Part shown: positions 2,899 to 54,505 of the stretch, one piece after another | Layout of the letters: each line of letters begins with the position of its first letter | Position numbering within the stretch: position 1 is the stretch's first letter | Assembly: GCA_023362775.1 (NCBI GenBank) | Contig: JALMGJ010000004.1 | Location: 84,093,798 to 84,157,797 of the forward strand | Source: Charina bottae | Lineage: Eukaryota > Chordata > Lepidosauria > Squamata > Charinaidae | Direction of reading: 5' to 3' | DNA length: 64,000 nucleotides | Notes under the pieces: model-generated | Told to the model about the DNA's origin: nothing | Seen by the model: the letters and a program-made list of their open reading frames with translations, nothing else | Database searches by the model: none | Position numbers and translations under genes: made by a program

Positions 2899-2955
2899 CC
2901 CCTTCATGGATCACTGCCTTGTTGTGGCGAAGGGGCTTGCGTAACTCAATGAAGT
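2899..2955 (+). ncRNA. HDV-like self-cleaving ribozyme candidate at the BovB 5' end
   Basis: The first base of the element starts a possible 7-bp helix P1 (ccccttc 2899-2905 with gaagggg 2929-2935). Inside it is a 3-bp P3 (gcc 2916-2918 with ggc 2926-2928) closed by the loop ttgttgt. The order P1, short joiner atg, P2 strand, P3 and loop, P1' matches the start of HDV-type ribozymes. A cttg...caatga segment follows (2936-2952), and a tentative short P2 would be act 2913-2915 with agt 2953-2955. P4 and the catalytic cytosine are not resolved by eye. HDV-like ribozymes are known at the 5' ends of some RTE retrotransposons. Two other families in this window have the same fold with different base pairs. 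Confidence 0.6.
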
Positions 2956-2981
2956 CAGGTCAAGAAAAACAGTTTTGTTTT

Positions 2982-2994
2982 CCAAGATGGCGGC
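2982..2994 (+). promoter_or_regulatory. YY1-like motif near the L2 5' end
   Basis: The string ccaagatggcggc lies about 20 nt inside the L2 5' end. It matches the YY1 core (AAGATGGCGGC) known from mammalian promoters and from the human L1 5' UTR. The third L2 copy has a related motif (caatatggcgacc, 57535-57547) at its own 5' end. The role as an initiator-proximal promoter element is inference. Confidence 0.5.
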
Positions 2995-4093
2995 CGCAAG
3001 TCAGCGCGACCGATGACCGCTCCGGGAGAAAAGCTGCAAACCCTGTGAAAACCCACCGAAAACCCCCTAAAATTCACCTTGGGGGTCTGGAGAGGTAGTG
3101 TTGCCAGTGGTGAGTGGCTTTCTCCGGGGGGAAGAGCTGGGGCGAGGCCTGTGTCCGGGTCGGAGCTCTGTGAATCTGCGCGAGGAAGCCCAGTAAACTG
3201 CCGAAGACACCGTAGGCTTCCAAAGTTTGTTGGGAGCCAAAGACCGCAGAGGCTTTTGAGGTTCGAGCTGGGCTGGTGGAGTGAGGCCGGTGGAGCTGGT
3301 GAGGGCCTGGAATCCACCGAAGACCTGGAGATTGTGGGAGGCTGCAGGAGGCAGCTGGATGCTGCTAGCTGTTGGTCTTCAAGCTGGGCCGGCGGCACTT
3401 GTGGGGCTAGAGCCTACCGAGGGCTGCTGGAAGCTGCCGGAGGCCTCTGATTTCGATTGCTAGAGGCTGGAGACCGTCGGAGTTCGAACTAGGCCGGTGG
3501 AGTCGGTGGGACCTAGCAGAGCCAGCTGGTAAAGAGGGGAGCCCAGCTGGTGTAACGGAGTACTCGGTTGAGCCGCCTCCCCCCCCGCAGACAAGCAGAC
3601 AAAGTGGACCTTTTTCCTGGGCCGATTCTAGAAGGGGTTCAGAAGCTTTTGATGTTAGAACTGGCTGGAGTTGGGGGCGAACCCTGCGGCCCTGGAAAGT
3701 ACAGATGTTGCAGAGGCTGGAGCCCAGGAGATCAGGGCATAAGAAAAATAATAACACGGACTGACCCCCATGAAGATCTGGATATCGTCCCATTCAGGCT
3801 AAGGCGGCAGAGAGTTTGTAGGGGTCCCTTGGTATGAATGTGGACCCCCCCGGGTGAGAGACGAGGTGGAGGGGAACCAAGATTGTATGGTTTTGTAAGA
3901 GTACCCCCCTGGGTGAGAGTCAGATGGGGTAGGAGTGATTGCTGGTGAGTGTTGGTACCTCTCCCTGACCAGTGAGAGAAGTTGAGGGAGAGGTGCAAAG
4001 TGTGAGTGGGGGTGGTGCTGGACCCTACCAGCGCCGAGAGCGAGAGCTGGTACACTGGGGAGGCTGCCACTACCCGACATTGTATGAGATTGG

Positions 4094-7000
4094 ATGATGG
4101 ATGAATGGGATAAGGGACCCTTGATTAGACCCAGGAATTCCGGAGGCCTGGGAGTGGAGGCTACTAGGCCAGAGCCGGGAATCTCTGGGGGCTGTGTAGT
4201 GGGCCAATTGATTCAGGTGGTGACGGGCAGGGGACGGTATGATGGGAACAGGAGGGCAAGCCATTATCGGGGAAGGCGCCCCCGGTGTTTGTTACTGGTG
4301 GTGCGTTCCGGCCCCCCGTGTTCATACCCAGGCCCTGGTAAGCAGATCCTCATGGTCTCCGGTCTCCGACTGCTGCTGCTGAATGCCAGGTCGGTGAATA
4401 ACAAGGACCCCCTTATAAGCGATTTAATCACAGAGGAAGGGGCCAACCTGGTGTGTATTACCGAGACCTGGCTGGGCCCAGAGGGGGGAGTAGCCCTCTG
4501 GGAAATGTGCCCAGCCGGGTATTGGGTGTGGCATCAGCCGAGACACCGGGGCAGGGGAGGAGGGGTGGCAGTTGTCATCCGAGAGTCCCTTGTGGCCTTC
4601 AGGGGTGCTGCTCCACAAGTGACCGGATGTGAGACCCTGTTTTTCAAGTTGGGTTCACGAGAACAGTTGGGAGTGTTGCTGCTGTACCAGCCTCCCTGCT
4701 GCGTAGCAACCTCCCTGCCTGAGCTGCTCGAGGCTGTCTCAGGGTTGGCAGTGGAGTTTTCCAGACTTATGGTTCTGGGGGACTTCAATCTGCCATCCCT
4801 GGGACGGTCCTCGGAGGTGGCCTGGGAGTTCATGGCTACCATGGCAGCTATGGGCCTGTCTCAGATTATCCGTGACCCAAATCGTGACAGTGGTCTCACT
4901 CCGGATTTAGTTTTCTTGTCCGAGCAGTGGCAATGTGATCTGAGGAGAGTTACATCTTTCCCCATTATCATGGTCAGACCACGCCCTGGTGACCCTGAGA
5001 CTCTCTTGTGCTGCCCCACTCCGCAGGGAGGTGGGACCTATTCGACTAGTCCACCCCCGGCGACTGATGGACCCAGTGAGGTTTCAGAAGGAGCTGGGGG
5101 TTATTCCCGAGGACTTGCTTCACGGTCCAGTGGAGGTCCTGGCTGCAGCCTGGAACAAGGCAGCAGCCGGAGCCCTGGACAAGATCGCACCTATGCGACC
5201 TCTCCGGCCCTGTTCGGCCCATCACTCTCCATGGTTTACAGAGGAGTTGAGGGCTTTGAAGAGGGTTAAGAGACATCTAGAGCACCGCTGGAGAAAGACG
5301 AAGACTGAATCTGACCGAACACAATCTAGAGCCGCAGTTAAGGCCTACCTTGTGGCGTTAAGAGCGGCAAAACATGAATATTTCTCCGCTCTTATTGCGT
5401 CCGCAGAATGCCATCCGACCGCCCTGTTTAAGATTACAAGATCGCTTTTGGGTCGGGAGCAAGGGGAGACCCATTTACAGGGCCGATCGGAAGAGTTTTC
5501 TGAGCATCTGCAGGACAAAATCGCTCAGATTCATTCCAAGTTGGACTCCAAGCGTGAAACAAGATCTGGGGAGATGCCAGAGGCTCGTACTTACCATGTT
5601 ATCTGGGAGCAGTTTGATCCTGTTGGGCCTGATGAAGTAGACAGGATCCTTGGGATTGTAAATGCCACCACATGTCAACTTGACCCATGTCCCTCCTGGC
5701 TGGTGAAATCAGCTAGAGAGGTGACATGTGGCTGGGTCCTGGCGATTATAAATTCGTCCTTGAGTGAGGGGGCGTTCCTGGCTCCCTTTAAGGAGGCGCT
5801 GGTGCACCCCCTCCTCAAAAAACCATCCCTGGACCCTAATATCCTGGGCAATTTTCGCCCAGTCTCCCACCTTCCCTTTTTGGGAAAGGTGGTTGAGAAG
5901 GTGGTGGCATTGCAACTCCAGAGGATTCTGGAGGAAACGGATTATCTGGACCCTTTTCAGTCAGGTTTCAGGCCGGGATATGGGACAGAGACCGCATTGG
6001 TCGCACTTATGTATGATCTCTGGCGAGTGCGGGATGGAGGGAGTGCGTCCATCCTGGCTCTCTTAGATCTCTCAGCGGCTTTTGATACCGTCGACCACGG
6101 TATACTCTTGGGGCAGCTCAGGGAGTTGGGGGCGGGCGGCGTGGTTTTGCGCTGGTTCGCCTCCTTTCTCCAGGGCCATTCCCAGTCGGTGTTGATAGGG
6201 GAGGAGAGAGGTGACCCGTGACCCCTGTCTTGTGGGGTGCCGCAGGGATCGGTTTTCTCTCCTCTCCTGTTCAACACCTACATGAAGCCGCTGGGTGAGA
6301 TCATCCGTCACCACGGGATGAGGTATCACCAATATGCTGATGATACCCAGTTATACATCTCCATCCCGGGTAAAGTAGGTGATGCGGTCAATGCCTTATC
6401 TCAGTGTCTGGAGGCTGTGGGGGTCTGGATGGGGAACAACAGGCTTCAACTGAACCCTGGTAAGACGGAGTGGCTGTGGATTGACGGCCCCCATAGATCC
6501 GGGAAGTTTTCATCTTTGGTTCTGGGTGGGGTTGCACTACCTCACTCGGATCCAGTGCGGAATATGGGGGTTCTCCTGGACTCACGACTCCTGCTCGAAG
6601 AGCAGGTGGCAGTCGTGGCCAGGAGGACCTTTGCACAACTTCGAGTTGTGCGCCAGTTACGCCCTTTCCTGGATCGGGAGGCCCTCCAAACAGTCACTCA
6701 CGCCCTTGTCATCTTCCGCATAGACTACTGTAATGCGCTCTACATGGGGCTACCCTTGAAGAGTATCCGGAAGCATCAGCTGGTACAGAATGCGGCGGCG
6801 CTAGCAGTTATGGGTGCCATAAGATCGGCACTTGTAACACCTCTGCTACGCGAGCTGCATTGGTTGCCAGTTTGCTTCCGGGTCCAATTCAAGGTGTTGG
6901 TGATTACCTTTAAAGCCCTATATGGCATAGGACCAGGGTACCTGAGGGACCGTCTCGTCCGGATGACGTCGGACCGCCCCACCCATGCATGCAGAGAGGG

Positions 7001-7217
7001 CATGCTTTGGACCCCCTCAACAAGAGAATACCATCTAGCGGGGTCCAGGAGGCGTGCCTTCTCTGCGACAGCGCCCGCTTTATGGAACATCTTGCCCCCG
7101 GAGGTGAGACTGGCCCCTTCACTCCTGGCCTTTCGGAAGGCCCTTAAGACCTGGCTCTGCCACCTGGCCTGGGACGACAGAGGCGGTAGTGCCTCCTGGG
7201 GTTGGCTGACCCCGTAG
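4094..7217 (+). pseudogene. L2 endonuclease/reverse transcriptase ORF, disrupted
   Basis: The endonuclease part is open in one frame from 4094 (NARSVNNK near 4380, CITETWL near 4455, GDFNLPSLG near 4780). The SDH-type motif (SWSDHALV, from 4968) continues in another frame, so there is a frameshift at about 4955-4967. The second frame stays open to 7217 apart from one TGA at 6219-6221, just before the RT block CGVPQGS. RT motifs present are DLSAAFDTVDH (about 6066-6098), PQGSVFSPLLF and QYADDTQLY (about 6331-6357). YADD is intact. The C-terminal region (LHWLPV, ALWNILPPEV) is typical of the L2 clade. The protein would nick target DNA and copy L2 RNA. Two lesions make this copy non-autonomous. 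Confidence 0.9.
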
Positions 7218-7701
7218 GTGATCTGTGCTACGGTCCTCAAGCCATCTTGGATTTTATTTGTTTTATTTTATATTGGATATATTTTTATATATCTTCTTTT
7301 TGTATTGTTTTTTAAATTTTTTAAATTTTAAATTTTAATTATTGTAACCCGTCCAGAGGCACTTGCATGGGAGATGGGCGGGGAATAAATTAAATAAATA
7401 AAAATAATAATAAAAATAAACAGGTCATGATGGAGAGTTCCGACAAAATGTGGTCAAAAACTGGAGGAGGGAATAGCAAACCACTCCAGTATCCTTGCCA
7501 AGAAAACCCATGAACAGTATCAAAAGTCTAAAAGATATGACGCCAGAAGATGAGCCCCTCAGGTCAGAAGGTGTCCAAAATGCTACTGGGGAAGAGCGGA
7601 GGGCAATTCCGAGTAGCTCCAATAAGAGTGAAGCGGCTGGGCCAAACCCGAAAGGACGCTCAGTTGTGGATGTGTCTGGAAGTGGAAGGAAAGTCTGATG
7701 A

Positions 7702-10537
7702 TATAAAGAACAATATTGCATAGGAACCTGGAATGTAAGATCTATGAATCAAGGTAAGCTGGATGTGGTCAAACATGAGATGACAAGATTGAACATCGAC
7801 ATCTTGGGAATCAGTGAACTAAAATGGACAGGAATGGGCGAATTTAATTCAGCAGACCATTATATATACTACTGTGGGCAAGAATCCCTTAGAAGAAATG
7901 GAGTAGCTGTCATAGTCAATAAAAGAGTGGGAAAGGCAGTACTGGGGTACAACCTCAAAAACGACAGAATGCTTTCAGTTCAAATCCAAGGCAAACCATT
8001 CAACATCACAGTGATCCAAGTCTATGCCCCAACCACTGATGCCGAAGAAGCTGAAGTTGACCGGTTCTATGAAGACCTACAACACCTTCTAGAACTAACA
8101 CCAAAAAAAGATGTCGTTTTCATCATAGGGGACTGGAATGCTAAAGTAGGAAGTCACAAAATAACCGGAATAACAGGCAAGTTCGGCCTCGGAGTACAAA
8201 ATGAAGCAGGGCAAAGGCTAATAGAGTTTTTTCAAGAGAACACGCTGGTCATAGCAAACACTCTTTTCCAACAACACAAGAGACGACTCTACACATGGAC
8301 ATCACCAGATGGTCAATACCGAAATCAGATTGATTATATACTTTGCAGCCAAAGAAGGAGAAGCTCTATACAATCAGCAAAAACAAGACCTGGAGCTTAC
8401 TCTGGCTCAGATCATGAGCTTCTTATCGCAAAATTTAGGCTTAAATTGAAGAATGTAGAGAAAACCACTAGACCAATCAGGTATGACCTAAATCATATCC
8501 CTTATGAATATACAGTGGAGGTGAGGAATAGATTTAAAGGATTAGACCTGGTAGACAGAGTGCCTGAAGAACTATGGATGGAGGTTCGTAACATTGTACA
8601 GGAGGCAGCAATTAAAACCATCCCAAAGAAAAAGAAATGCAAGAAAGCAAAGTGGCTGACTGATGAGGCTTTACAAATAGCTGGGGAAAGAAGGGAAGCA
8701 AAAGTCAAGGGAGAAAGGGAAAGATATAAACAACTGAATGCAGAATTCCAGAGAATAGCAAGGAGAGATAAGAAGGCCTTCTGAAATGAACAATGCAAAG
8801 AAATCGAGGAAAACAATAGAATGGGGAAGACTAGAGATCTCTTCAAGAAAATTGGAGATATCAAGGGAACGTTTTGTGCAAAGATGGGCATGATAAAGGA
8901 CAAAAAAGGCAGGGACCTAACAGAAGCAGAAGAGATTAAGAAGAGGTGGCAAGAATACACAGAAGAACTATACAAGAAAGATCTTATTGTCCCTGATAAA
9001 TATGATGGTGTGGTCACTGACCTTGAGCCGGACATCCTAGAGAGTGAAGTCAAGTGGGCCTTAGGAAGCATTACTAACAACAAAGCTAGCGGAGAAGACA
9101 GTATCCCAGCTCAGCTATTTAAAATCCTAAAAGATGATGCTGTTAAAGTGCTGCACTCAATATGCCAACAAATTTGGAAAACTCAACAGTGGCCACAGGA
9201 TTGGAAAAGGTCAGTTTACGTTCCAATTCCAAAGAAAGGCAATGCCAAAGAATGTTCAAACTCCCGTACAATTGCGCTCATTTCACATGCTAGCAAGGTT
9301 ATGCTCAAAATCCTACAAGCTAGGCTTCAGCAGTATGTGAACCGAGAACTACCAGAAGTGCAAGCTGGGTTTCGAAGAGGCAGAGGAACTAGAGATCAGA
9401 TTGCCAACATTCGCTGGATCATGGAAAAAGCAAGAGAGTTCCAGAAAAACATCTACTTCTGCTTCATTGACTACGCTAAAGCCTTTGATTGTGTGGATCA
9501 CAACAAACTGTGGCAAAGTCTTAAAGAGATGGGAATACCAGACCACCTTACCTGTCTCCTGAGAAACCTGTATGTGGGTCAAGAAGCAACAGTTAGAACC
9601 GGACATGGAACAACCAACTGTTTCAAAATTGGGAAAGGAGTACGACAAGGCTGTATATTATCACCGTGCTTATTTAACTTATATGCAGAGTACATCATGA
9701 GAAATGCCGGGCTGGATGAATCACAAGCCGGAGTTAAGATTGCCGGGAGAAATATCAACAACCTCAGATATGCAGACGATACCACCCTAATGGCAGAAAG
9801 TGAAGAGGAACTAAAGAGCCTCTTGATGAGGGTGAAAGAGGAGAGTGCAAAACCTGGCTTGAAACTCAACATTAAAAAAACCCAGATCATGGCATCTGGT
9901 CCCATCACTTCCTGGCAAATAGAAGGGGAAGAAATGGAAGCAGTGACAGATTTTATTTTCTTGGGCTCCAAGATCACCGCAGACGGTGATTGCAGCCATG
10001 AAATTAAAAGACGCTTGCTCCTTGGGAGGAAAGCTATGGCAAACCTAGACAGCATATTAAAAAGCAGAGACATCACCTTGCCGACAAAGGTCCGTATAGT
10101 TAAAGCTATGGTTTTTCCAGTAGTAATGTATGGCTGTGAGAGTTGGACCATAAGGAAGGCTGAGCGCCGAAGAATTGATGCTTTCAAACTGTGGTGCTGG
10201 AGAAGACTCTTGAGAGTCCCTTGGACTGCAAGGAGGTCAAACCAGTCAATCCTAAAGGAAATCAACCCTGACTGCTCATTGGAAGGACAGATGCTGAAGC
10301 TGAAGCTCAAATACTTTGGCCACCTAATGCGAAGAGAGGACTCACTGGAAAAGACCCTGATGCTGGGAAAGACTGAAGGCAAAAGGAGAAGGGGACGGCA
10401 GAGGATGAGATGGTTAGATAGCATCACCGATGTAATGAACATGAATTTGAGTAAACTCCGAGACAGTGGAGGACAGGAAGGCCTGGCGTGCTATGTTCCA
10501 TGAGGTCACAAAGAGTTGGACACGACTAAATGACTGA
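7702..10537 (+). pseudogene. BovB endonuclease/reverse transcriptase ORF, two lesions
   Basis: The first ATG is at 7744, but the frame is open from 7702 and already encodes the endonuclease motif GTWNVRS. Counting from that ATG, endonuclease motifs are ELKWTG (about residue 23), YAPT, GDWNAKVG (about 129), DYIL and SDHELL (about 222). RT motifs are FIDYAKAFDCVDH (about 573) and YADDTTLM (about 675). The only internal stop is TGA at 8782-8784 (kkaF*NEQC). The same frame then continues from 8785 to 10503. Near 10465 a small deletion shifts the C-terminus; the expected ending (HEVTKSWTRLND) is found in another frame with its stop at 10535-10537. All catalytic motifs are visible, so decay is recent or slight. 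Confidence 0.92.
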
Positions 10538-10559
10538 ACAACCACAAAATTCTATCATT

Positions 10560-11500: not shown

Positions 11501-11501
11501 A

Positions 11502-11502
11502 A

Positions 11503-11543
<41 letters not shown>
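11502..11543. repeat. (AAT)n microsatellite
   Basis: An uninterrupted array of about 14 trinucleotide units. Confidence 0.97.
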
Positions 11544-11545
<2 letters not shown>

Positions 11546-11784
11546 GATCTTCTAAATTTCTTACTTGTGCTGATTAGCACAGTAGGTAGTTGTCAGGAAC
11601 TTGTCACTGGCATAAAAAAATATTGCTTATACATGAACACTCTTGTCTTCAGAGTTTCCCTATATTGTTTGCACAACTAATTAATGCCATAATGCACATG
11701 TAAGGGGGAAAAAAGCTTTCACTTAGGAATCTGTGATCTGAGGCTTACTCAATAATAAGCAACCAAGTATCTGCTACTTGTGTA
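11544..11784. other. Short AT-rich stretch without a gene
   Basis: Nothing recognisable was seen between the AAT array and the L2 tail. Confidence 0.45.
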
Positions 11785-11900
11785 TATTTATTTATTTATT
11801 TATTATTTGGATTTATCCTCGCCCATCTCTACCATGGTAGACTCTGGGCGGTTTACAATCACAATATAAAAGTTAAAAGCCTATACATTTAAAAACTACT
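11785..11900 (-). mobile_element. L2-type 3' tail fragment
   Basis: The string attta repeats followed by cgcccatctc and gactctgggcggtttacaa is the reverse complement of the L2 3' end seen intact at 52665-52740 (gtaaaccgcccagagt, gagatgggcggt, then aaata repeats). Only the last 100 or so bases of an element are present. Confidence 0.75.
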
Positions 11901-11984
11901 ATAAAAATAAAAAATAAATATATGTGTGTATGTGTACTCATTTTTATATTACTAGTGTTATATTTCTGTTACTATTGTTACTTT

Positions 11985-12066: not shown

Positions 12067-12069
12067 GTC

Positions 12070-13768: not shown

Positions 13769-13772
13769 TTCT

Positions 13773-28388: not shown

Positions 28389-30257
28389 ATGGCTGTTGTG
28401 GGTCTTCCGGGCTGTGTGGCTGTGTTCTGGAAGTTGTGGTTCCTAACGTTTCACCAGCATTTGTGGCCAGGATCTTCAGAGGGCAGGAGCACAGACAGAA
28501 GCGAAATCTCTGTGCCCAGGTAGAGTGGCAATGTTTTGTTTGTTTTCTATTTATAGAGCTAAGTTATAGGAGATTAGGTGGGGTTTTTTGTTGTGTTGAA
28601 ATGTTAACGAGTGGCTGATGAGCGTGATTAGCATGTTCATTGTGAGAAGTATTCCCCTGTCCTGGTGGTTGGACTGAGTTTGTTGACCTTTTGCAGGCTG
28701 TGTTTTTCAGGACTGGTAGCCAGGTTTTGCTAATTTTTAGACTTCCTTCTTTTTTATTGTAACTGTGCTGGTGTTTGTGAATTTCAATGGCTTCTCTGTA
28801 TAATCTGGTGTAGTGGCTTTTGGTGTTGTCCAGTATTTCTGTGTTTTCAAATAGGATTTTGTTTCCCATTTGCTTGAGAGCATGTTCAGCTACTGAAGAT
28901 TTTTCCGGTTGCTGTAGTCTGCAGTGTCTTTCGTGTTCTTTTATCCTGGTGTGAATGCTTCGTTTTGTGGTTCCGATGTATACTTGTCCACAGCTGCATG
29001 GTATGCGGTATACTCCTGCAGCAGTGCGGGGGTCCCTTTGCTGATTTTAGCATTTGTTGTATTTTCCTGGTGGGTCTGAAGACTGTTTGAAAGTTGTGTT
29101 TTTCCATCAGTTTTCCCATGCGGTCAGTGACTCCTTTGATGTAGGGCAGGAATACTTTGTTTGTGTGGGGCTGTTTTTCTTCAGTTGGATGTTGTTTTCT
29201 TGGTTTGATGGCTCTTTTTATTTCATTTTTGGAATAGCCATTCACCTGTAGGACACAATTCAGATGGTTAAGTTCATTGTTGAGAAATTGGGTTTCACAG
29301 TTTCGATTAGCACGATCCACCAAGATTTTGATCATGCCTCTCTTTTGTCGTGGGTGGTGATTGGAATTTTTGTGCAGATACCTTTCTGTATGGGTGGGTT
29401 TTCTGTATACTTTGTGTCCTAGTTTGAGGTCTGGTTTGCGTATGACCAGCGTATCTAAAAATGGAAGTTTGCCATCAGTTTCTTTTTCCATAGTGAATTG
29501 TATATTGGGGTGGATGCCGTTTAGGTGGTCCAAACATTTCTCCAGTTGTTCTTCAGTATGACTCCAAATTGCGAAGGTGTCATCCACGAACCAGAACCAG
29601 ACTGTTGGTGTAATGGGAGCCGATTCCAAAGCCTGTTTTTCAAAATGTTCCATGTAAAAGTTTGCTATGACTGGGCTCAGGGGGCTTCCCATGGCAACGC
29701 CATCCATCTGTTTGTAGAACTCATTCTCCCATTGAAAGAAACTAGTTGTTAGGCAGTGTTGAAATAAAGCTGTAATGTCTTCTGGGAAGATTTGCTTGAT
29801 GAGTGCCAGGGTGTCCCTTACTGGTACCTTGGTAAACAGGGATACTACGTCAAAGCTGACCAGTTTGTCTGTGTGGTTGAGTTTTAGGGTGCTGATTTTG
29901 TTGATGAAGTGTCCTGAGTCTTTGATGTGTGATGGAGTCTGTCTGATGTGGGTCTGTAAAAGGGTTGCCAAATGTTTGGATAATTCATATGTCGGGGAGC
30001 CAATGGCACTTACAATGGGTCTGAGTGGGATCGAGTCTTTGTGGATATTGGGGAGTACGTATAGTCTTGGTGAGAGAGCTTCTGTCTTGCAGATACATTG
30101 TAGTACGTTGGGATGCAGGGAGGAGCTCTTTATCAGTGTGTTGGTTTCCTTCATGATTTTAGGAATGTTAGGAACCACAACTTCCAGAACACGGCCAAAC
30201 AGCCCGGAAGACCCACAACAGCCATCGAACTCCGGCCGTGAAAGCCTTCGACAATAC
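28389..30257 (-). mobile_element. Penelope-like retroelement, near complete 3' part
   Basis: A 13-bp TSD, aatggattatttg, flanks it at 28376-28388 and 30258-30270. On the minus strand it begins with a terminal repeat (tgtcgaaggctttcacggcc, then gttcgatggctgttgtgggt), followed by the RT ORF, the GIY-YIG part and, at the far end (28389-28530), the terminal repeat in the opposite orientation. Such inverted or partial terminal repeats are normal for Penelope elements. Frameshifts disable it. Confidence 0.9.
28445..28482 (-). ncRNA. Hammerhead-ribozyme-like motif in Penelope terminal repeat
   Basis: Minus strand: CTGAAGA (complement of 28473-28479), a variable stem-II segment, GAAAC (complement of 28448-28452), then GTT. 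Same architecture as at 19536-19573. Stem-II pairing is weakened by substitutions. Confidence 0.5.
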
Positions 30258-30259
30258 AA
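28564..30259 (-). pseudogene. Penelope reverse transcriptase / GIY-YIG endonuclease ORF, frameshifted
   Basis: The long frame 30259-28886 reads through the terminal repeat (start MYCRRLSRPEFDG is repeat-derived) into the RT: YVLPNIHKDSIPLRPIVS, SFDVVSLFTKVP, MGSPLSPVIANFYME and the catalytic FVDDTFAIW near residue 224. The C-terminal GIY-YIG domain (GVYRIPCSCGQVYIGT, near 29010-28960) is in a second frame, so a frameshift lies near 29030. The far C-terminus (about 28869-28564) carries the RLYREAIEI-type ending. The N-terminal part of the RT upstream of the YVLPNIHK block is missing. Established function: the GIY-YIG nuclease nicks the target and the RT copies the element. This copy is inactive. 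Confidence 0.88.
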
Positions 30260-30270
30260 TGGATTATTTG

Positions 30271-30715
30271 TTTATTTATTTATTATTTTAGATAGCCACC
30301 CATATCACTACTATGACTCTGGGTGGCTTACAAAGTTAAAAATACAGAAAACAATATAAAATCAACCAAAAAAATCTGCAAAAATCATTAAAAATGTTAA
30401 AAACAATAAAACTATTAAAAACATGAAAAAAATCAGCGGGAGAGCACCATTCATTTTCCTAAAAGTACAATGTCTCCAGATCCCCAGGCCAGATGACAAA
30501 GCCATGTCTTCAGGATCTTCCAGAAGCCAACAAGGTTGGGGCAAATCTCACCTCGGGGGGGGGGATGATGTTCCACAGTGTGGGCACTGTAGCAGAAAAG
30601 GCTTTCCTTCTGAGTCCCGTCATATGACATTCCTTCACAGATAGACCAGCAACAAGCCCTTTCTGCTGGATCTGATGGGACGGCTAGATATGATTGGGGT
30701 GAGGGAAATATTAGT
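30271..30715 (-). mobile_element. LINE 3' region fragment (L2/CR1-like)
   Basis: After ttatttattt repeats, plus-strand gactctgggtggcttacaa is the reverse complement of an L2-type 3' terminus. The following text (gatgttccacagtgtgggc, agaaaaggctttccttctg) matches the 3' non-coding region of squamate LINEs in minus orientation. No open frame is present. Confidence 0.6.
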
Positions 30716-35985: not shown

Positions 35986-37560
35986 CACTGCTCAAAAAAA
36001 TAAAGGGAACACTGAAACAACACAATGTAAGTCCAAGTCAATCACACTTCTGTGAAATCAAACTGTCCACTTAGGTAGCAACACTGACAATCAATTTCAC
36101 ATGCTGTTGTGCACATGGAATAGACAACAGGCGGAAAGCATAGGCAGTTAGCAAGACATCCCCAATAAAGGAGTGGATCTGCAGGTGGTGACCACAGACC
36201 ACTTCTCAGGTCCTATGCTTTCTGGCTGATGGTTTGGTCACTTTTGAATGCTGGCGGTGCTTCCACTCTAGTGGTAGCATGAGACGGAGTCTACAACCCA
36301 CACAAGTGGCTCAGGTAGTGCAGCTCATCCAGGATGGCACATCAATGCGAGCTGTGGCAAGAAGGTTTGCTGTGTCTGTCAGCGTAGTGTCCAGAGCATG
36401 GAGGCGCTACCAGGAGACAGGTCAGTACATCAGGAGACGTGGAGGAGGCTGTAGGAGGGCAACAACCCAGCAGCAGGACCGCTACCTCCGCCTTTGTGCA
36501 AGGAGGGACAGGAGGAGCACTGCCAGAGCCCTGCAAAATGACCTCCAGTGGGCCACAAATGTGTGTGTGGCTGCTCAAACGGTCAGAAACAGACTCCATG
36601 AGGGTGGTATGAGGGCCCGACATCCACAGGTGGGGGTTGTGCTTACAGCCCAACACCGTGCAGGACGTTTGGCATTTGCCAGAGAACACAAGATTGGCAA
36701 CTTCGCCACTGGTGCCCTGTGCTCTTCACAGATGAAAGCAGGTTCACACTGAGCACATGTGACAGACGTGACAGGGTCTGGAGATGCCGTGGAGAACATT
36801 CTGCTGCCTGCAACATCCTCCAGCATGACCGGTTTGGCAGTGGGTCAGTAATGGTGTGGGGTGGCATTTCTTTAGGGGGCCGCACAGCCCTCCATGTGCT
36901 CGCCAGAGGTAGCCTGACTGCCATTAGGTACCGAGATGAGATCCTCAGACCCCTTGTGAGACCATATGCTGGTGCGGTTGGCCCTCGGTTCCTCCTAATG
37001 CAAGACAATGCTAGACCTCATGTGGCTGGAGTGTGCCAGCAGTTCCTGCAAGACGAAGGCATTGATGCTATGGACTGGCCCGCCTGTTCCCCAAACCTGA
37101 ATCCAATTGAGCACATCTGGGACATCATGTCTCGCTCCATCCACCAACGCCACGTTGCACCACAGACTGTCCAGGAGTTGGGGGATGCTTTAGTCCAGGT
37201 GTGGGAGCAGATCCCTCAGGAGACCATCCGCCACCTCATCAGGAGCATGCCCAGGCGTTGTAGGGAGGTCATACAGGCACGTGAAGGCCACACACACTAC
37301 TGAGCCTCATTTTGACTTGTTTTAAGGACGTTACATCAACGTTGGATCAGCCTGTAGTGTTCTTTTCCACTTTAATTTTTGAGTGTAACTCCACATCCAG
37401 ACTTCCAGGGGTTGCTTACATTTGATTTCCATTGCTTTTTGTGTGATTTTGTTGTCAGCACATTCAACTATGTAATGAACAAAGTAATTAATACGAATAT
37501 TTCATTCATTCAGATCTAGGATGTCTTATTTCAGTGTTCCCTTTATTTTTTTGAGCAGCT
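35986..37560 (+). mobile_element. Tc1-like DNA transposon, near intact
   Basis: The ends cactgctcaaaaaaataaag (35986) and ctttatttttttgagcagct (to 37560) are inverted repeats matching over about 28 bp, flanked by TA dinucleotides at 35984-35985 and 37561-37562. The 1575-bp element encodes one DD34E transposase with a single frameshift. The terminal and coding sequence closely resemble, from memory, a Tc1 family widespread in teleost fish and lampreys, for which horizontal transfer has been reported. The base composition and coding quality stand out against the old repeats around it. Confidence 0.93.
36279..37303 (+). pseudogene. Tc1 transposase (DD34E), single frameshift
   Basis: The likely start is ATG 36279 ([17 protein letters not shown]), since upstream codons are not part of the family. 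N-terminal helix-turn-helix DNA-binding regions are visible ([18 protein letters not shown]; then TARALQNDL...[15 protein letters not shown]). After AFAREH (about 36690) one base is missing: the first frame runs to a stop at 36752, and the catalytic half continues in another frame to 37303. Catalytic residues are intact: FTDESRF, QDNARPH and NPIEH, with 34 residues between the second Asp and the Glu. The enzyme would bind the inverted repeats and cut and paste at TA sites. Confidence 0.92.
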
Positions 37561-41060: not shown

Positions 41061-41681
41061 TTGTTGGTTGTTTATTCATTCAGTCTTTTCCGACTCTTTG
41101 TGACCTCATGAGCCAGCCCATGCCAGAGCTTCCTGTCGGCCATCACCACCCCAAGCTTCCCCATTCCAGTCCATTTCAATTCACTGACACCCAAAATGTC
41201 TATATTTAATCTTGACATCTCACCAATAATAACATCCAATTTGCCCTGGCTCATAGATCTTACATTCCAGGTTCCTATGATGTGTTGATCTTTAGAACAT
41301 TGGATTCATCGTTAACCACCAGTATCGTCGGCCGCTAGCCATCCTTTCGGCTTTGAGCTAGCTGCATCATCACATCTGGGGCTAGTTGAACTTATCCTCT
41401 GTTCCTCCCCAGTAGCATTTTGACCATCTTCCGACCTGGGAGTCCCATCTTCCGATGGTATACCGTCATATCTCTGGTTGTACTGATCCATTTAGATTTC
41501 ATGGCAAAAATACTGGGGTGGGTTGCCGTTACCTTCCCCAGGGATCAGTCTGGATCAGGATTTAGTCTGACCTCTCTGCCATGACCTTCCCGTCTTGGTG
41601 TCCCTTCACGGTTTAGCTCATGGCATCATTGATGTGTTCAAGCTTCAGCACCATGACAATCTAACAATCTCCTTTTCTTGA
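41061..41681 (-). mobile_element. Internally deleted BovB (5' UTR fused to 3' end)
   Basis: On the minus strand the copy begins with a decayed ribozyme-type 5' end (41681-41640) and runs through the 5' UTR and ORF start (to about 41154). It then jumps directly to the last coding residues and 3' tail (aagagtcggaaaagactgaatg, ending about 41070). About 2.5 kb of the family's ORF is missing. The flanks share a near-identical repeat, gaagatgaggat / gaagattaggat (about 41048-41060 and 41682-41694), supporting insertion as a unit. Confidence 0.82.
41072..41254 (-). CDS. Short fusion ORF of BovB N- and C-termini
   Basis: The frame starts MSQGKLDVIIGEMSRLNIDI, the BovB endonuclease N-terminus, and after SELKWTGMG passes straight into KLGVVMADRKLWHGLAHE, the extreme C-terminus, to the native stop. 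No catalytic part of endonuclease or RT remains, so no enzymatic role is expected. The join is in frame, which may be chance. It could be a non-autonomous master form or a single deletion event. Confidence 0.6.
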   Translation of the reverse strand: MSQGKLDVIIGEMSRLNIDILGVSELKWTGMGKLGVVMADRKLWHGLAHEVTKSRKRLNE

Positions 41682-41689
41682 GAAGATTA

Positions 41690-42135
41690 GGATACAGAGG
41701 AAGAATTTGATAAAATTGATTAATAAAAGAGAAAAGAAGAAGAATTAAAGATTTGTGAGAATAAGAAATGTTCCAAGGGATGTTTTGGAGCATTTTGTCA
41801 GGAAGAAAACAAGGGACCAAGTTTTGCAGCAGCATTTTAATACAGGACTAAAGATTGATAATACAGGTATAATTGTTCTTAAAGAAATTCCTATTAGAAT
41901 TTTGTGTAAGAGAAAAGTATTTTTTAACTGAGAAATTAAAGCAGAAAAAGATTCCATTTCAATGGGACAAATTGGAAGGTGTGATTTTTACTTTTAAACA
42001 CCAGAGGTTTTGATTGAATTCTGTCCAGAAGTCCTGGGAATTTCTAGATAAATTAAAGAAGAATTGGAGGAGATTCAAATGGAGGTGTCAAAGGAGACTA
42101 CACAAAACTCCAGAAGGTGCAACAGGAAACTGAAA
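41690..42135 (+). pseudogene. L1 ORF1 C-terminal remnant
   Basis: The translation includes RNVPRDVLEHFVRKKTRDQV-type text, then FNTGLKIDNTGIIVLKEIP and RILCKRKVFFN, the arrangement of the L1 ORF1 C-terminal domain. Several stops and a shift interrupt it. The RNA-chaperone function would be lost. Confidence 0.55.
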
Positions 42136-46001: not shown

Positions 46002-46433
46002 CGCCCATGTGCTGATCCATGACTAGGAGCTTCCGGATTACACAGTCCTGCCCCCGTTGCCATTCGTCAATCGCCATGGGACTTTTGGTTGTTTTGGGTT
46101 TGGTGTGGTTGGAAGACGCCTGTGCGTGAATTTGTTTTATGTGTGGAGATCGGTGCACAACGATCAGCACACAACCTTCACAGAAAAAGGCTCTAATCCA
46201 ATGGCATGGATACCATGACGATTGGTGACCTTTTGTCTGCTGCAGCCTTCATCCGCCTTCGCAGCCGTTGTAACAATACACCTTGTTATCTTCCGCCTGT
46301 TCTGCCGTTGAGGACTTTCTTGGATCGTTCTTTGTCTGGTTCCTCCCCCTGGACCTTACCGCCATGGGTGACCCTGCCAGGAGTACATGACTCCCGACGG
46401 CTTCGCTCACAGGGTTCATTGGGAACACACAAG

Positions 46434-46471
46434 CCCACTCACCACAACAAGGTGACGATCCAGCGAGTGAG
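46434..46471 (-). ncRNA. HDV-like ribozyme candidate at the zinc-finger LINE 5' end
   Basis: On the minus strand, P1 is ctcactc (46471-46465) with gagtggg (46440-46434), 7 bp including one U-G pair. P3 is acc with ggt around loop ttgttgt (46453-46441). P1 starts at the element's first base. The downstream cttg...caatga segment is also present. Same layout as 2899-2935 with different paired bases. Confidence 0.55.
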
Positions 46472-47886: not shown

Positions 47887-48222
47887 GGGGCACGGTGGCT
47901 CAGCGGGTAAGATGCCAGGCTTGTTGATCAGAATATCGCAAGTTCGGAGGTTCGAATCCCTAGCCCTGCATGACGGAGTGAGCTCCCACACTAGCCCCAG
48001 CTCTTGCCAACCTAGCAATTTGAAAGCATGCAAATTCAAGTAGATTAATAGGTACCACTTCGGTGGGTAGGTAACAGCACTCTGTGTGCGTCATGCCGAC
48101 CACATGACCGTGGAAGCGTCTTCGGACAATGCTGGCTCTTCGGCTAACAAATGGAGATGAGCACCGGCCCCTAGAGTTGGACACGACTGCACAAATGTGT
48201 GGGGGGAACCTTTACCTTTTTT
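47887..48222 (+). mobile_element. Sauria-type SINE with BovB tail
   Basis: It starts ggggcacggtggctcagcgg (A-box region) and has a perfect B-box ggttcgaatccc. The body continues through aacctagcaatttgaaagc and gaccacatgaccgtgg to a tail, agagttggacacgact (48173-48188), identical over 16 nt with the BovB 3' end at 10512-10527. It ends in acctttacctttttt. A 9-bp TSD, aaatgaaaa, lies at 47878-47886 and 48223-48231. It splits L1 ORF2. It would be transcribed by Pol III and mobilised by BovB. Confidence 0.93.
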
Positions 48223-49722
48223 AAATGAAAATGAGCTACATTGATTTTCTTAGATGCAGAGAAGGTCTTTGGCAATTTGAATGGGGCTTTCTTGTTCAAG
48301 GTTTTGGAAGATACAAATTTTGGAGAGTACTTTATAAAATGGGCAAGATCAATTTACACTCCACAGAAAGCACAAATAATTGTTAATGGAGGTCTAACAA
48401 AACCCTGTGAGATACAAAAAGGAACAGGACACGGATACCCACTGTCTTCTCTCTCGTTTATTTTGGTTCTTGAAATACTGAATGGAGATATAAGACAAGA
48501 TGAGAGGATTGTAGCAGTAAGGATTAAAAAAGAAACATATAAGTTAAGGTCTTTTGCAGTTGATTTGGTGTTGATTCTAGAAGATCCTTAAAAGGGAATT
48601 GAAACATTAATGGGAAAATTAAAATAATTTGGTGCATTATCAGGTTTCAAGATTAATAAACAGAAGACAAAGATGTTAATTGAAAATATGAAAATAGAAG
48701 ATCAAACAAAATTGATAAATAAAACTGGTTTTAAGATTGAGAAGAAGGTAAAATATGGGTATCACTATGACAAATATGAACAGTATGTTATTTCAAACAT
48801 GGAATGTATGCTGTCTCAAGTATGTTAAGACATGGAATGAAGTTAAAAAAGACATGTAAAGATGGGAGAAACTACAAGTGTCATTGCTGGGGAGAATTTC
48901 TTTGATATAAATGAATGTTTTGCCTAGAATGTTTTTGTTTCAGAAAATACCTGTTTTGACAACTGACGCACCATTTAAACAGTGGCAAAAAGGTATATCT
49001 AAATTTGTATGGCAGGGGAAAAAACTATGGGTTAAACAGAAGGTGTTACAAGATGCAAAGGAAAGAGGAGGGTTGGGCCTACCTGCTTTGAAATTGTATT
49101 TTGCAGCTTGCTGTTTGGTTTGGATGAAAGAGTGGGTGCTGCAGAGAAATAGAAGGCTTTTGGAGTTAGAAGAACACAACCTGAGATTTGGGTGGCATGG
49201 ATATTTGTGGTACAATAAAGTCAAAATTAATGTGGATTTTAAAAATCATTGTTAGATGTGCCATATTGAAAATATGGAATACATACAAAGCCAGGTTGTG
49301 CCCAAAAAAACCTTTGTGGCTCTCAGCACAAGAAGCATTTTATAGACGAGAAATAATAGGCAAACACAAATGGCTAACTTATTGTGAGATACTAGAATTT
49401 TGTCAAGGGGAATTTGAAATAAAATCAAGAGAAGAATTGGTTGCAGAGGGATATAGTTGTCAATTGTTCTCTTATTTACAGTTAGTAGAAAGATTTAAAG
49501 TAGACAAAAGAGTTTATGGTTCTGAACATTGAAAGACTGAGTTTGAAATAGAATTGTGTACAAATGATGAACATATAATTGTTAAAATGTATAAACTTTT
49601 ATTGAAATTTGAAACAGAAAAAGAACAAGTGAAAGAATGTATGATAAAGTGAGCTAAAGGTTTTGGTTATAATATACAGATGGAACAATGGGAAAAGATG
49701 TGGTGGAAAGGATTGAAATTTA

Positions 49723-51517
49723 TTTGTTGTTTATTTGTTCAGTCGCTTCCAACTCTTCGTGACTTCATGGACCAGCCCACGCCAGAGCTTCCTGTCAGCC
49801 GTCACCATCCCCAGCTGCCCCACGGTCGAGTCTGTCACCTCCAGAATATCATCCATCCATCTTGCCCTTGGCCGGCCCCTCTTCCTTTTTCCTTCCACTT
49901 TCCCTAGCATCAGCTTCTTCTCCAGGGTATCCTGTCTTCTCATTATGTGGCCAAAGTACTTCAGTTTTGCCTTTAATATCATTCCCTCAAGTGAGCAGTC
50001 TGGCTTTATTTCCTGGAGTATGGACTGGTTTGATCTTCTTGCAGTCCAAGGCACTCTCAGAATTTTCCTCCAACATCACAGTTCAAAAGCATCTCTCTTC
50101 CTTCTCTCAGCCTTCCTTATGCTCCACTTCTCGCAGCCATAGGTTACTACGGGGAATACCATTGCTTTAACTATGCAGACCTTTGTTGTCAGTGTGATGT
50201 CTCTGCTCTTAACTATTTTATCAAGATTTGCCATTGCTCTCCTCCCAAGAAGTAGACGTCTTCTGATTTCCTGGCTGCAGTCAGCGTCTGCAGTAATCTT
50301 TGCGCCTAGAAATAAAAAGTCTGTCACTGCCTCCACTTTTTCTCCCTCTATTTGCCAGTCATCAATCAAGCTCGTTACCATAATCTTGGTTTTTTTGAGG
50401 TTTAACTGCAACCCAGCTTTTGCACTTTCTTCTTTCACCTTCTCATAAGGCTCTTCAACTCCTCCTCGCTTTCAGCCATCAAAGTGGTATCATCTGCATA
50501 TCTGAGATTGTTAATGTTTCTTCCAGCGATTTTAACTCCAGCCTTGGATTCCTCAAGCCCAGCACGTCGCATGATGTGTTCTGGGTACAGGTTGAATAGG
50601 TAGGGTGAGAGTATACAACCCTGCCATACTCCTTTCCCAATCTTAAACCAGTCCGTTGTTCCGTGCTCTGTTCTTACCATTGCTACTTGGTCGTTATGCA
50701 GATTCCTCAGGAGGCAGACAAGATGACTTGGTATCCCCATACCACCAAGAACTTGCCACAATTTGTTATGATCCACACAGTCAAAGGCTTTAGAATAGTC
50801 AATAAAACAGAAATAGATGCTTTTCTGAAATTCCCTGGCTTTCTCCATTATCCAGCGGATATTGGCAATTTGGTCTCTAGTTCCTCTGCCTTTTCTAAAC
50901 CCAGCTTGTACGTCTGGCAATTCTTGCTCCATGAATTGCTGGAGTCTACCTTGCAAGATCTTGAGCATTACCTTACTGGCTTGTGAAATAAGTGCCACTG
51001 TTCGATAGTTTGAACATTCTTTAGTGCTTCCCTTTTTTGGTATGGGGATATAAGTTGATTTTTTCCAATCTGATGGCCATTCTTGTGTTTTCCAAATTTG
51101 CTGGCATATGGCATGCATCACCTTGACAGCATAATCTTGCAAGATTTTAAACAGTTCAGCTGGGATACCGTCGTCTCCTGCTGCCTTGTTATTAGCAATG
51201 CTTCTTAAGGCCCATTCAACCTCACTCTTCAGGATGTCTGGCTCTAACTCACTGACCACACCGTCAAAGCTATCTCCAATATTATTATCCTTCCTATACA
51301 AATCTTCCGTATATTCTTGCCACCTTTTCTTGATCTCTTCTGCTTCTGTTAGGTCCTTACCATCTTTGTTTTTGATCATACCCATTTTTGCCTGGAATTT
51401 ACCTCCGATATTTTTAATTTTCTGGAAGAGGTCTCTTGTCCTTCCTATTCTATTGTCTTCTTCCACTTCCGCACATTGCTTGTTTAAAAATAATTCCTTA
51501 TCTCTTCTGGCTAACCT
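49723..51517 (-). mobile_element. BovB family 2, copy A, 3' part
   Basis: Minus-strand RTE/BovB copy ending at the 3' tail gactgaacaaataaacaac next to L1 sequence at 49722. It carries the RT domain and C-terminus. An L2 insertion interrupts it at 51517/51518, and the copy continues at 52752-52827. No TSD is found on the far side, which fits loss of its 5' half by recombination with copy B. Confidence 0.88.
49731..51466 (-). pseudogene. BovB family 2 reverse transcriptase, copy A
   Basis: Frame 51466-50435 encodes the linker and RT: EEIKKRWQEYTEDLYRKD, NNKAAGDDGIPAELFK, FIDYSKAFDCVDHNKLW and YADDTTLMAESEEEL (catalytic YADD intact). A frameshift near 50440 moves to the frame 50438-50076 (LNLKKTKIM, AMVFPVVTYGCEKW), which ends at a TGA where the family has Trp. 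The same frame resumes at 50054 (PWTARRSNQSIL) and ends at the native stop 49731 (HEVTKSWKRLNK). The endonuclease half is absent. It is inactive. Confidence 0.88.
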
Positions 51518-52746
51518 GGGGAGGAGAGATCCAGCCCGTGACCACTCCTGTGTGGGGTGCCGCAGGGTTCGGTTCTCTCTCCTTTCCTATTCAACATCTA
51601 CATGAAACCGCTGGGCGAGGTCATCCGACACCATGGGATGAGGTATCATCAGTATGCAGATGATACTCAACTGTATATCTCCATCCCAATTGAAGTAAGT
51701 GATGCAGTGACCACCCTGTCCCAGTGCCTGGGGGCCGTGAGGGACTGGATGGGGAACAACAGGCTTCAGTTGAACCCTGGCAAGACCGAGTGGCTGTGGA
51801 TTGATGGCTTGGCGTCTTCTAGGAAATTATCATCTTTGGTTCTCGATGGGGTTGCACTGCCCCATTTGGAACCGGTGCGCAACTTGGGGTTCCTTCTAGA
51901 CTCACGACTCCTGCTCGAAGAGCAGGTGGCAGTCGTGGCTAGAATGGCTTTTGCACAGCTTCGGCTTGTGCGCCAGTTGCGCCCATTCCTGGATCGCGAT
52001 GCCCTCCGAACAGTCACTCACGCTCTTGTCATCTCCCATGTAGATTATTGCAATGCGCTCTACATGGGGCTACCCTTGAAGACTATCCGGAAGCTACAGC
52101 TGGTGCAGAATGCAGCCGCGCGGGCGATTTTAGGTGTGCCAAGATCTGCACATATAACACCTTTGCTCTGCGAGCTGCATTGGGTGCCGGTCTGCTTCCG
52201 GGTACAATTCAAGGTGTTGGTTATCACCTTTAAAGCCCTACATGGCATGGGCCCAGAATACCAGAGGGACCGTCTTATCCCCATATTATCGACCCGCCCC
52301 ACCCGATCGTTCAGAGAGGGCCTCCTACGAGCCGCATCAATTAAAGAATGTCATCTGATGGGGGCTAGGAGGCGGGCCTTCTCTGTAGCAGCACCCACAC
52401 TATGGAACATCTTGCCCCCAGAGTTGAGACAGATCCCCTCCCTCCCGACCTTTAGAAAAGAACTGAAGACCTGGTTCTGCCGCCTGGCATGGGAAGGAGG
52501 AAACGATAGTTCCTCATGGTGGTGGTTAATCCCGTAATTTTATAATGCCCTTCTTTTATTAATACTATCTCCAACTTGGATTTTTATTTTACTTTATATT
52601 ATATTAATTATATAAATTGTTGGTGTATATATTTTATATTTTATGCTTTATCTAATTTTATTTATTGTAAACCGCCCAGAGTTCCCCATTGGGAGAGATG
52701 GGCGGTTATATAAATTAAATAAATAAATAAATAAAATAAATAAATA
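51518..52746 (+). mobile_element. L2 LINE, 5'-truncated, inserted in BovB copy A
   Basis: It starts in the RT domain and ends with the L2 3' tail (gtaaaccgcccagagttccc, gagatgggcggt, aaata repeats). A 5-bp TSD, aacct, is at 51513-51517 and 52747-52751. The empty-site sequence is seen intact in the duplicated BovB segment at about 53327-53345, which proves the insertion. Confidence 0.93.
51557..52537 (+). CDS. L2 reverse transcriptase C-terminal part (truncated, open)
   Basis: 326 codons are open: PQGSVLSPFLFNIYMKPLGE, then QYADDTQLYISIP with YADD intact, WMGNNRLQLNPGKTEWLW, DYCNALYMGLPLKTI and LWNILPPEL near the end. About 75% of residues appear shared with copy 1 by eye. The endonuclease and N-terminal RT are missing because of 5' truncation, so this is not an autonomous gene. 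The open frame only shows that the insertion is young. Confidence 0.85.
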   Translation: MPQGSVLSPFLFNIYMKPLGEVIRHHGMRYHQYADDTQLYISIPIEVSDAVTTLSQCLGAVRDWMGNNRLQLNPGKTEWLWIDGLASSRKLSSLVLDGVALPHLEPVRNLGFLLDSRLLLEEQVAVVARMAFAQLRLVRQLRPFLDRDALRTVTHALVISHVDYCNALYMGLPLKTIRKLQLVQNAAARAILGVPRSAHITPLLCELHWVPVCFRVQFKVLVITFKALHGMGPEYQRDRLIPILSTRPTRSFREGLLRAASIKECHLMGARRRAFSVAAPTLWNILPPELRQIPSLPTFRKELKTWFCRLAWEGGNDSSSWWWLIP

Positions 52747-52751
52747 AACCT

Positions 52752-52827
52752 CTGGAATTTTGCATTTAATTGGGCATATCTCCCCCTATCACTGTTGCCT
52801 TTTGCTTTCCTTCTTTCTTGGGCTACT
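52752..52827 (-). mobile_element. Continuation of BovB copy A beyond the L2
   Basis: These 76 bp are identical to 53332-53407 in copy B. They end at the junction ctactgttcga, where copy B sequence from the RT region begins. Confidence 0.85.
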
Positions 52828-54087
52828 GTTCGAAATTTTGAAAATTCTTTAGTGTTTCCCTTTTTTTAGTATGTGGATATAAGTTGATTTTTTCCAATCT
52901 GATGGCCATTCTTGTGTTTTCCAAATTTGCTGGCATATGGCATGCATCATCTTGCAAGATTTTAAATGGTTCAGCTTGGATACTGTCGTCTCCTGCTGCC
53001 TTGTTATTAGCAATGCTTCTTAAGGCCCATTCAACCTCACTCTTCAGGATGTCTGGCTCTAACTCACTGACCACACCGTCAAAACTATCCCCGATATTAT
53101 TATCCTTCCTATACAGATCTTCCGTATATACTTGCCACCTTTTCTTGATCTCTTCTGCTTCTCTTAGGTCCTTGCCAACTTTGTTTTTGATCATACCCAT
53201 TTTTGCCTGGAATTTACCTCTGATGTTTCTAATTTTCTGGAAGAGGTCTCTTGTCCTTCCTGTTCTATTATCTTCTTCCACTTCCATGCATTGCTTGTTT
53301 AAAAATAATTCCTTCTCTCTTCTGGCTAACCTCTGGAATTTTGCATTTAATTGGGCATATCTCCCCCTATCACTGTTGCCTTTTGCTTTCCTTCTTTCTT
53401 GGGCTACTTCCAGTGTCTCAGCAGACAGCCATCTTGCCTTCCTGGTTTTCTTTTTCTTTCGGACGTTTTTTGTTGCCGCCTCCTGAACTATGTTGTGAAC
53501 TTCTGTCCATAGTTCTTTCAGGACCATATCTACTAAATCTAGTCCCTTAAATCTATTCTTCACCTCCACTGCATATTCCTTAGAAATATTAGTGAGCTCA
53601 TATCTAACTGATCTGTGGGTCTTCCCTATTCTCTTTAGTCTGATTCTAAATTTTGCAATAAGAAGTTCGTGATCTTAACTAGTCAGCTCCAGGTCTTGTT
53701 TTTACCGACTGTATAGATGTCCGCCACCTTTGGCTGCAAAGGATGTAGTCAATCTGATTTCGGTGTCAACCATCTGGTGAAGTCCATGTATAAAGTCGTC
53801 TTTTAGGTTTCCAGGTGTCGTCTGACTACCCACCTTAGCATTCCAGTCTCCTGTAATGAAAATAACATCTCAAAGAATAATACACCAACATGTGCTTTAG
53901 CCACTTTATTATTAATAATGAAGGCTACTCCATTTCTTCTGTGGTCCTCTTGTCCACAGTAGTAGATCTGGTGGTCATCTGATGTGAAGTGGCCCATTCC
54001 AGTCCATTTCATTTCACTGATACCTAAAATGTCTATATTTAATCTTGACATCTCACCAATAACCACATCCAATTTGCCCTGGCTCAT
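52823..54087 (-). pseudogene. BovB family 2 endonuclease and linker, copy B
   Basis: 54087-53803 encodes MSQGKLDVVIGEMSRLNIDI, SEMKWTGMG and YYCGQEDHRRNGVAFI. The frame is then corrupted by a deletion filled with 24-26 nt at 53869-53894, so GDWNAKVG is shifted out of frame. 53569-52823 encodes VKNRFKGLDLVD, the basic linker (RRKAKGNSDRGRYAQLNAKF) and the start of the RT (NNKAAGDDSIQAEPFK), ending in copy A sequence. A 14-bp deletion relative to copy A shifts the RT frame. It is inactive. Confidence 0.85.
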
Positions 54088-54465
54088 AGATCTTACATTC
54101 CAGGTTCCTATGGTGTGTTGATCTTTAGAACATTGGATTCCTCGTTCACCACCAGCACCGTCGGCCGCTAGCTGTCCTTTCGGCTTTGAGCTAGCTGCGT
54201 CATCTCATCTGGGGCTAGTTGAACTTATCCCCTGTTCCTCCCCAGTAGCATTTTGACCATCTTCCGACCTGGGAGTCCCATCTTCCGATGGTATACCGAC
54301 ATATCTCTGGTTGTACTGATCCATTTAGTTTTCACAGCAAGAATACTGGGGTGGGTTGCCATTACCTTCCCCAGGGATTGTATTTAGTCTGACCTCTCTG
54401 CCACGACCTTCCCGTCTTGGGTGTCCCTTCACGGTTTAGCTCATGGTTTCATTGAGGTGCTCAAG

Positions 54466-54505
54466 CTCCAGCACCACGACAAGGTAACGATCTCCTTTGC
54501 TGGAG
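54466..54505 (-). ncRNA. HDV-like ribozyme candidate at the BovB family 2 5' end
   Basis: On the minus strand, P1 is ctccagc (54505-54499) with gctggag (54472-54466). P3 is acc with ggt around ttgtcgt (54485-54473). A cttg...caatga segment follows, and a tentative P2 is gtt with aac. P1 and P3 bases differ from family 1 (ccccttc/gaagggg, gcc/ggc) but pairing is kept, so the changes are compensatory. Confidence 0.6.

Follow-up and report, generated by a model that had tools for sequence, protein, structure and literature searches.

To our knowledge, there is no settled answer to the question of how a BovB RNA obtains its defined 5′ end. The window analysed here (the whole stretch of 64,000 nucleotides) contains three LINE 5′ ends, at 2899 (+), 46471 (−) and 54505 (−), at which an initial annotation had proposed an HDV-like ribozyme fold. 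P1/P1′ and P3/P3′ are present where that annotation had placed them, and base pairing across the three sequences makes an HDV-like fold at these ends well supported. It is proposed, with a probability of roughly 0.86, that BovB and a related zinc-finger RTE-like LINE each carry, at the 5′ end, the code for a self-cleaving ribozyme of the HDV-like type.

Architecture of the predicted fold

The three intact copies have P1 paired in 7/7 positions, P3 in 3/3 and P4 in 5/5, with P3′ running straight into P1′ and the P3 loop (L3) reading TTGTYGT throughout. P2 is paired in 6/6, 6/6 and 5/6 positions, and J1/2 measures 3, 4 and 6 nt. A single geometry describes all three folds: P1′ is followed after 7 nt by the 5-bp P4, CNGAC stands directly behind P4, and P2′ begins 5 nt further on. 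The folds span 92 nt (2899, after rejoining), 149 nt (46471) and 130 nt (54505). Their 5′ starts had been placed correctly, and the minus-strand folds reach further than first drawn, to 46323 and 54376.

The initial annotation had left P2, P4 and the catalytic cytosine open, and had regarded P2 as poor in the third family. All three parts, the cytosine as a candidate, are now located in each family, at equal spacing and with covariation, and the doubt over P2 did not hold. It arose because the view was confined to the first ~57 nt, while the P2 3′ strand lies 92–149 nt from the element start. Most of the candidates enumerated for a P2 near P1′ (best 14 per copy) fell at places not common to the families and were dropped; the P2 given here is at the one place that the families have in common.

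Enumeration of P2 strands in the 46471 element revealed an 8-bp P2, 105 nt past P1′ and behind CAGACAAAGA. In the 54505 element, the corresponding position of the alignment holds CAGACTAAAT followed by ACAATC, which pairs with GATCGT at 5/6 positions; the one C·A mismatch is what CpG decay would be expected to leave. Immediately 5′ of CAGAC, these two elements carry GGAAC and GAGGT, whose respective partners GTTCC and ACCTC lie 7 nt past P1′. Once a nested LINE is removed from the 2899 copy, AACTC/GAGTT, CCGACAAAAT and GATCAC/GTGGTC come to lie with the spacing seen in the other two.

Table 1. Coordinates of the predicted ribozyme parts and of the associated elements in the window.
Feature	Position	Strand	Basis or remark
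5′ TSD ATTCTATCATT, BovB copy 1	2888–2898	+	3′ copy 10549–10559, right behind BovB 3′ end
Putative ribozyme 5′ half, BovB copy 1	2899–2955	+	pairing
P1, BovB copy 1	2899–2905	+	
P2 5′ strand, BovB copy 1	2909–2914	+	
P3/L3/P3′, BovB copy 1	2916–2928	+	
P1′, BovB copy 1	2929–2935	+	
P4 5′ strand, BovB copy 1	2943–2947	+	
Nested L2/CR1-like LINE (presumed) and flanks, in P4 loop	2956–7427	+	LINE 2963–7420, 4458 nt
Remainder of BovB copy 1, with decayed endonuclease and reverse transcriptase	7421–10548	+	
Putative ribozyme 3′ half, BovB copy 1	7428–7455	+	fold of rejoined site
P4 3′ strand GAGTT, BovB copy 1	7435–7439	+	
Junction CCGACAAAAT, BovB copy 1	7440–7449	+	candidate catalytic C 7444, or 7440
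P2 3′ strand GTGGTC, BovB copy 1	7450–7455	+	
Decayed 5′ end, BovB copy 3	41540–41682	−	91% to copy 2 over 526 nt
Zinc-finger RTE-like LINE open frame, 1140 aa	42600–46022	−	79% to Anolis carolinensis protein
Putative ribozyme, zinc-finger RTE-like LINE	46323–46471	−	pairing
P1, P2 and P1′, zinc-finger LINE	46471–46465, 46460–46455 and 46440–46434	−	
P4, zinc-finger LINE	46426–46422/46343–46339	−	
Junction CAGACAAAGA, zinc-finger LINE	46338–46329	−	candidate catalytic C 46334, or 46338
P2′, zinc-finger LINE	46328–46323	−	
Putative ribozyme, BovB copy 2	54376–54505	−	pairing
P1, P2 and P1′, BovB copy 2	54505–54499, 54492–54487 and 54472–54466	−	
P4, BovB copy 2	54458–54454/54396–54392	−	
Junction CAGACTAAAT, BovB copy 2	54391–54382	−	candidate catalytic C 54387, or 54391
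P2′, BovB copy 2	54381–54376	−	one C·A mismatch

The junction common to the three families is CNGACWAAAN, in which CNGAC holds two invariant cytosines. The second of these, followed by WAA, seems more likely to be the catalytic residue than the first, and the bases 5′ of it would stack on P4 in non-standard pairs. P1.1, judged by eye, consists of one G-C pair and one U-U (1/2 possible pairs), and it can show no covariation because both sides are invariant. J4/2 is longer here than is usual for HDV, and P1 begins with C, where a G is usual. We take the L3 U and G to be those of the reverse wobble pair. In a 2024 paper (PMC10879173), the catalytic cytosine occupies the first position of J4/2; that position would fall to the second cytosine of CNGAC if P4 is so extended, and to the first if it is not.

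BovB copy 1 and its nested LINE

BovB copy 1 encodes endonuclease and RVT_1 domains (Pfam). Its reverse transcriptase (RT) shares 86% identity with a protein of Podarcis muralis and 83% with proteins of Bos and Varanus. As had been claimed for the BovB copy, P1 here begins at the first base after the target-site duplication (TSD), which is 11 nt long; the window has further occurrences of this 11-mer at 2823 and 42543. A 109-nt near-palindrome (90%) at 2775–2883 lies immediately upstream and is perhaps a fold-back formed during insertion; it contains the TSD-like 11-mer twice, once within the loop and once where the palindrome ends.

The nested element has endonuclease and RT domains by Pfam, and we take it, by recognition rather than by a database name, to be L2/CR1-like. 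It is flanked by a 7-nt duplication, CAGGTCA, at 2956–2962 and 7421–7427. Because this LINE inserted within P4, the ribozyme 3′ half of the 2899 copy is found at 7435–7455.

In raw coordinates, L2-like reading frames come after 2899, and the fold there could instead be read as that of the L2/CR1-like LINE, which would make it a new clade with a ribozyme, with the BovB at 7421 a separate, truncated or template-jumped copy. That reading would place P2 at 3603, where a P2-like strand stands behind CAGACAA, a match reached in 4/2000 shuffles. The two sets of duplications overturned it: removing the LINE between its CAGGTCA flanks gives an empty site that restores the complete fold, and the outer TSD links 2898 with the BovB 3′ end at 10548. 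Moreover, 2936–3600 folds no better than its shuffles (z = −0.08). An L2/CR1 origin of the 2899 fold is hardly credible. As the duplications establish a nested insertion, the P2-like match at 3603 is a chance one, and it shows that a single 8-nt helix arises easily by chance. The 2899 fold is thus treated below as that of BovB.

Covariation and specificity

The helix bases had been said to differ among the families with pairing kept, and this is borne out, also when P4 and P2 are included. Across P1 (7), P3 (3), P4 (5) and P2 (6), 62 of the 63 pair cells of the three intact sequences are paired, and 11/21 pairs have changed on both sides among the three families (four in P1, one in P3, four in P4 and two in P2). 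The decayed copy at 41682 was excluded from this count.

Could this be chance pairing in a 5′ sequence that is conserved without being structured? The 5′ half taken by itself would allow it. A descriptor of P1 7/7, P3 3/3 and L3 (U-NN-U-Y-G-N) has three matches in the window, exactly at these sites, but shuffled windows give a mean of 1.08 matches (maximum 5; 60 shuffles), and 26 matches occur in viral contigs totalling 1.08 Mb. By number of matches, then, the 5′ half has no significance. The conserved core, CTTGTYGTGG-N7-9-CTTG, a pattern derived from the data themselves, occurs three times in the window, in each case at one of these sites, versus 0.01 expected (100 shuffles). As a control, a pattern one base longer was searched for in viral contigs, giving at least 121 exact matches in at least 120 stretches. 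Among the matches listed, P1 7/7 with P3 3/3 accompanied the core in 0/121, versus 3/3 here, and P1 of at least 6 with P3 3/3 in 6/121.

A strict full descriptor found the 46471 and 54505 folds alone in the window, and the 2899 fold after rejoining. Neither 100 shuffled windows nor the 1.08 Mb of viral sequence contained a match, nor did any of 20,000 mononucleotide-shuffled tails made from the rejoined copy. With the P4 and P2 5′ strands fixed for each family, one fitting site per family was obtained among 127,758 tails on both strands of the window, namely its own 3′ half. The strict descriptor, including the free N in CNGAC, was composed when all three sequences were already known, and these results therefore measure specificity and are not a blind prediction. 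A looser full descriptor gave a mean of 0.52 matches per shuffled window and 11 in viral contigs. Given the 11 two-sided changes, the single fitting site per family and the control matches to the core, chance pairing is very improbable.

Energy-based folding was consistent with parts of this structure. For the P4 domains alone, the predicted outer stem closes in 3/3, with z = −3.64 for the 54505 region (the P4 domain of BovB copy 2) and only −1.54 for the 46471 region. In the 5′ halves, P1 folds in 3/3, and the 2899 copy is the only one whose minimum-energy structure includes P3. The check by Rfam covariance models that the initial annotation had suggested returned no gathering match in the window, and for the three regions nothing from the HDV families appeared up to an E value of 10. 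For copy 1 the query still contained the nested LINE, and the models are built on other sequence families.

Other LINE copies in the window

The label ‘RTE-type’ given earlier to all three elements agrees with their likeness to BovB. Beside the RT of copy 1, BovB copy 2 matches copy 1 in DNA at 71% over 531 nt and at 75% over 986 nt, and the protein of the 46471 element, which has endonuclease and RT domains by Pfam, is 34% identical to BovB RT in the aligned part. The 46471 element is accordingly classed as RTE-like from its Pfam domains and BovB identity. To judge by the protein matches of these elements, their host is probably a squamate. By eye, its protein ends in a C-terminal C2H2-like motif, whose cysteines and histidines are nearly invariant in 18 relatives; Pfam made no call for this motif. 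The repeat adjoining the 46471 start is 8 nt long and ambiguous, its motif occurring 18 times in the window, and an alternative 12-nt flank repeat lies 16 nt further out.

A flank repeat search found no TSD for the 54505 copy. The BovB sequence at 49717–54505 is rearranged, and the 3′ part of the 54505 element is affected. Segments 50994–51517 and 52822–53332 are 91% alike and flank an L2-like segment that runs in the opposite orientation. A stretch of 81 bp is exactly duplicated, at 52747–52827 and 53328–53408. An RT fragment at 50438–51586 is 78% identical to copy 1; since the 3′ part of the 54505 element is rearranged, this fragment may be part of yet another copy.

The stretch of DNA that copies 2 and 3 share begins, in each of them, 2 nt before P1. 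Copy 3 is flanked by ATCCTAATCTT at 41693–41683 and by ATCCTCATCTT from 41059, which agree at 10/11 positions. Its fold has decayed to 4/7 pairs in P1, 1/3 in P3 and 4/5 in P4, with an insertion at P2′, and its L3 reads TTGTCAT, in which A replaces the conserved G.

Elsewhere in the window, reading frames inspected by eye indicate what are presumably a Penelope-like element whose end is of the GIY-YIG type, at 28564–30271 (−), and a Tc1-like transposase at 36192–37303 (+).

Three scans of viral contigs yielded no RT relative, and another gave one weak match (34% over 41 residues); among genome contigs, one scan found none and another found two (24–26%). With a loose descriptor, one of those two contigs had no match and the other had 3; neither is credited with the fold, because the three matches fall inside the protein-aligned region. 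The 5′ end of BovB copy 2 had no match in phage and plasmid BLAST. Contigs of roughly 2–3.5 kb that are assigned to Staphylococcus aureus, Mycoplasmopsis arginini and Babesia ovata also carry BovB RTs, which in these three assemblies are probably host contamination.

Comparison with known HDV-like ribozymes

The earlier remark that some RTE elements have HDV-like ribozymes agrees with two papers (PMC11620745; PMC3774820), which place such ribozymes at the 5′ ends of R2, R4, R6, RTE, SART, Baggins and L1Tc. The RTE-clade ribozymes of Ruminski et al. (2011), as cited in those papers, share both clade and 5′-terminal place with the folds described here. Likened by that description, cleavage is expected at the element's first base in both cases. 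The LINEs of the window nevertheless have no match to the known RTE-type HDV-like Rfam families.

R2 ribozymes, as described in PMC3774820, resemble these folds in having a P1 of 6–7 bp, a short P3, a P2 and a P4 of very variable length, as well as a conserved L3 G and a catalytic C, for which there is a candidate here. They differ in being rDNA-specific and in often cutting upstream in the 28S gene, whereas P1 here lies inside the element, and their J1/4 is 0–2 nt, compared with 7 nt from P1′ to the 5-bp P4. According to the same paper, the L3 G is conserved in HDV-like ribozymes, and one R2 junction in which this G was changed to A showed no cleavage that could be detected; the G is in place in 3/3 intact copies. 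The mosquito ribozyme drz-Agam-2-1 (PMC4908430) likewise forms a nested double pseudoknot and is cut at the first P1 nucleotide, which is the position predicted here. It differs in carrying a structured P1.2 in J1/2, a joiner of only a few nucleotides in the present folds.

For reptilian Bov-B, a 2026 paper (PMC13295347) describes a TSD that starts with A and, ~12 nt on, a C-stretch that marks the full-length start. The A-starting TSD and C-rich start agree with the letters at 2888–2905, and the word ‘ribozyme’ is absent from the main text of that paper. Among the titles listed in searches of open-access PMC, none concerned a ribozyme of BovB; an earlier mention in Ruminski et al. (2011) is possible. 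As BovB belongs to the RTE clade, a ribozyme in BovB would extend the HDV-like ribozymes already known from RTE.

Proposed mechanism

The fold, its covariation and its place at the element start are observed, and from them we infer cleavage, a cut site and a role in retrotransposition. Transcription would begin upstream in host sequence and read through from host promoters, and the RNA at the element start would fold into a nested double pseudoknot of P1, P2, P3 and P4. A cytosine in the P4–P2 junction would act in co-transcriptional cleavage just 5′ of P1, so that the cut falls at the element's first base, adjoining the TSD. The released RNA, with its exact 5′ end, would then be translated and enter target-primed reverse transcription, and new full-length copies would start at the P1 base independently of the promoter used. 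P1 directly adjoins the 11-nt TSD at 2899 and the 10-of-11 repeat at 41682.

A real and conserved structure could serve some present role other than self-cleavage, such as starting translation or binding the protein that the element encodes, and an ancestral ribozyme may now be inactive. The position in the 5′ UTR and the incomplete P1.1 would suit such a role. However, L3 and both junction cytosines are identical in the three families despite the divergence of the helices, a pattern that fits selection on an active site, and the elements start at the TSD boundary, which is where cleavage would put the start. A purely non-cleaving function is therefore unlikely, and self-cleavage is the preferred reading.

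Implications for BovB

A 5′ ribozyme could explain, in concrete terms, the origin of the exact 5′ end of BovB RNA. A tentative extension, to which we give slightly less than even odds, is that a 5′ HDV-like ribozyme is general to BovB, including its horizontally acquired mammalian copies, and that the resulting promoter independence aids establishment after transfer. Ruminant BovB is an obvious candidate for such a ribozyme. If the proposal is true, BovB could be released from any host transcript and would not need a promoter of its own, which would help to explain how it establishes itself after transfer between distant vertebrates.
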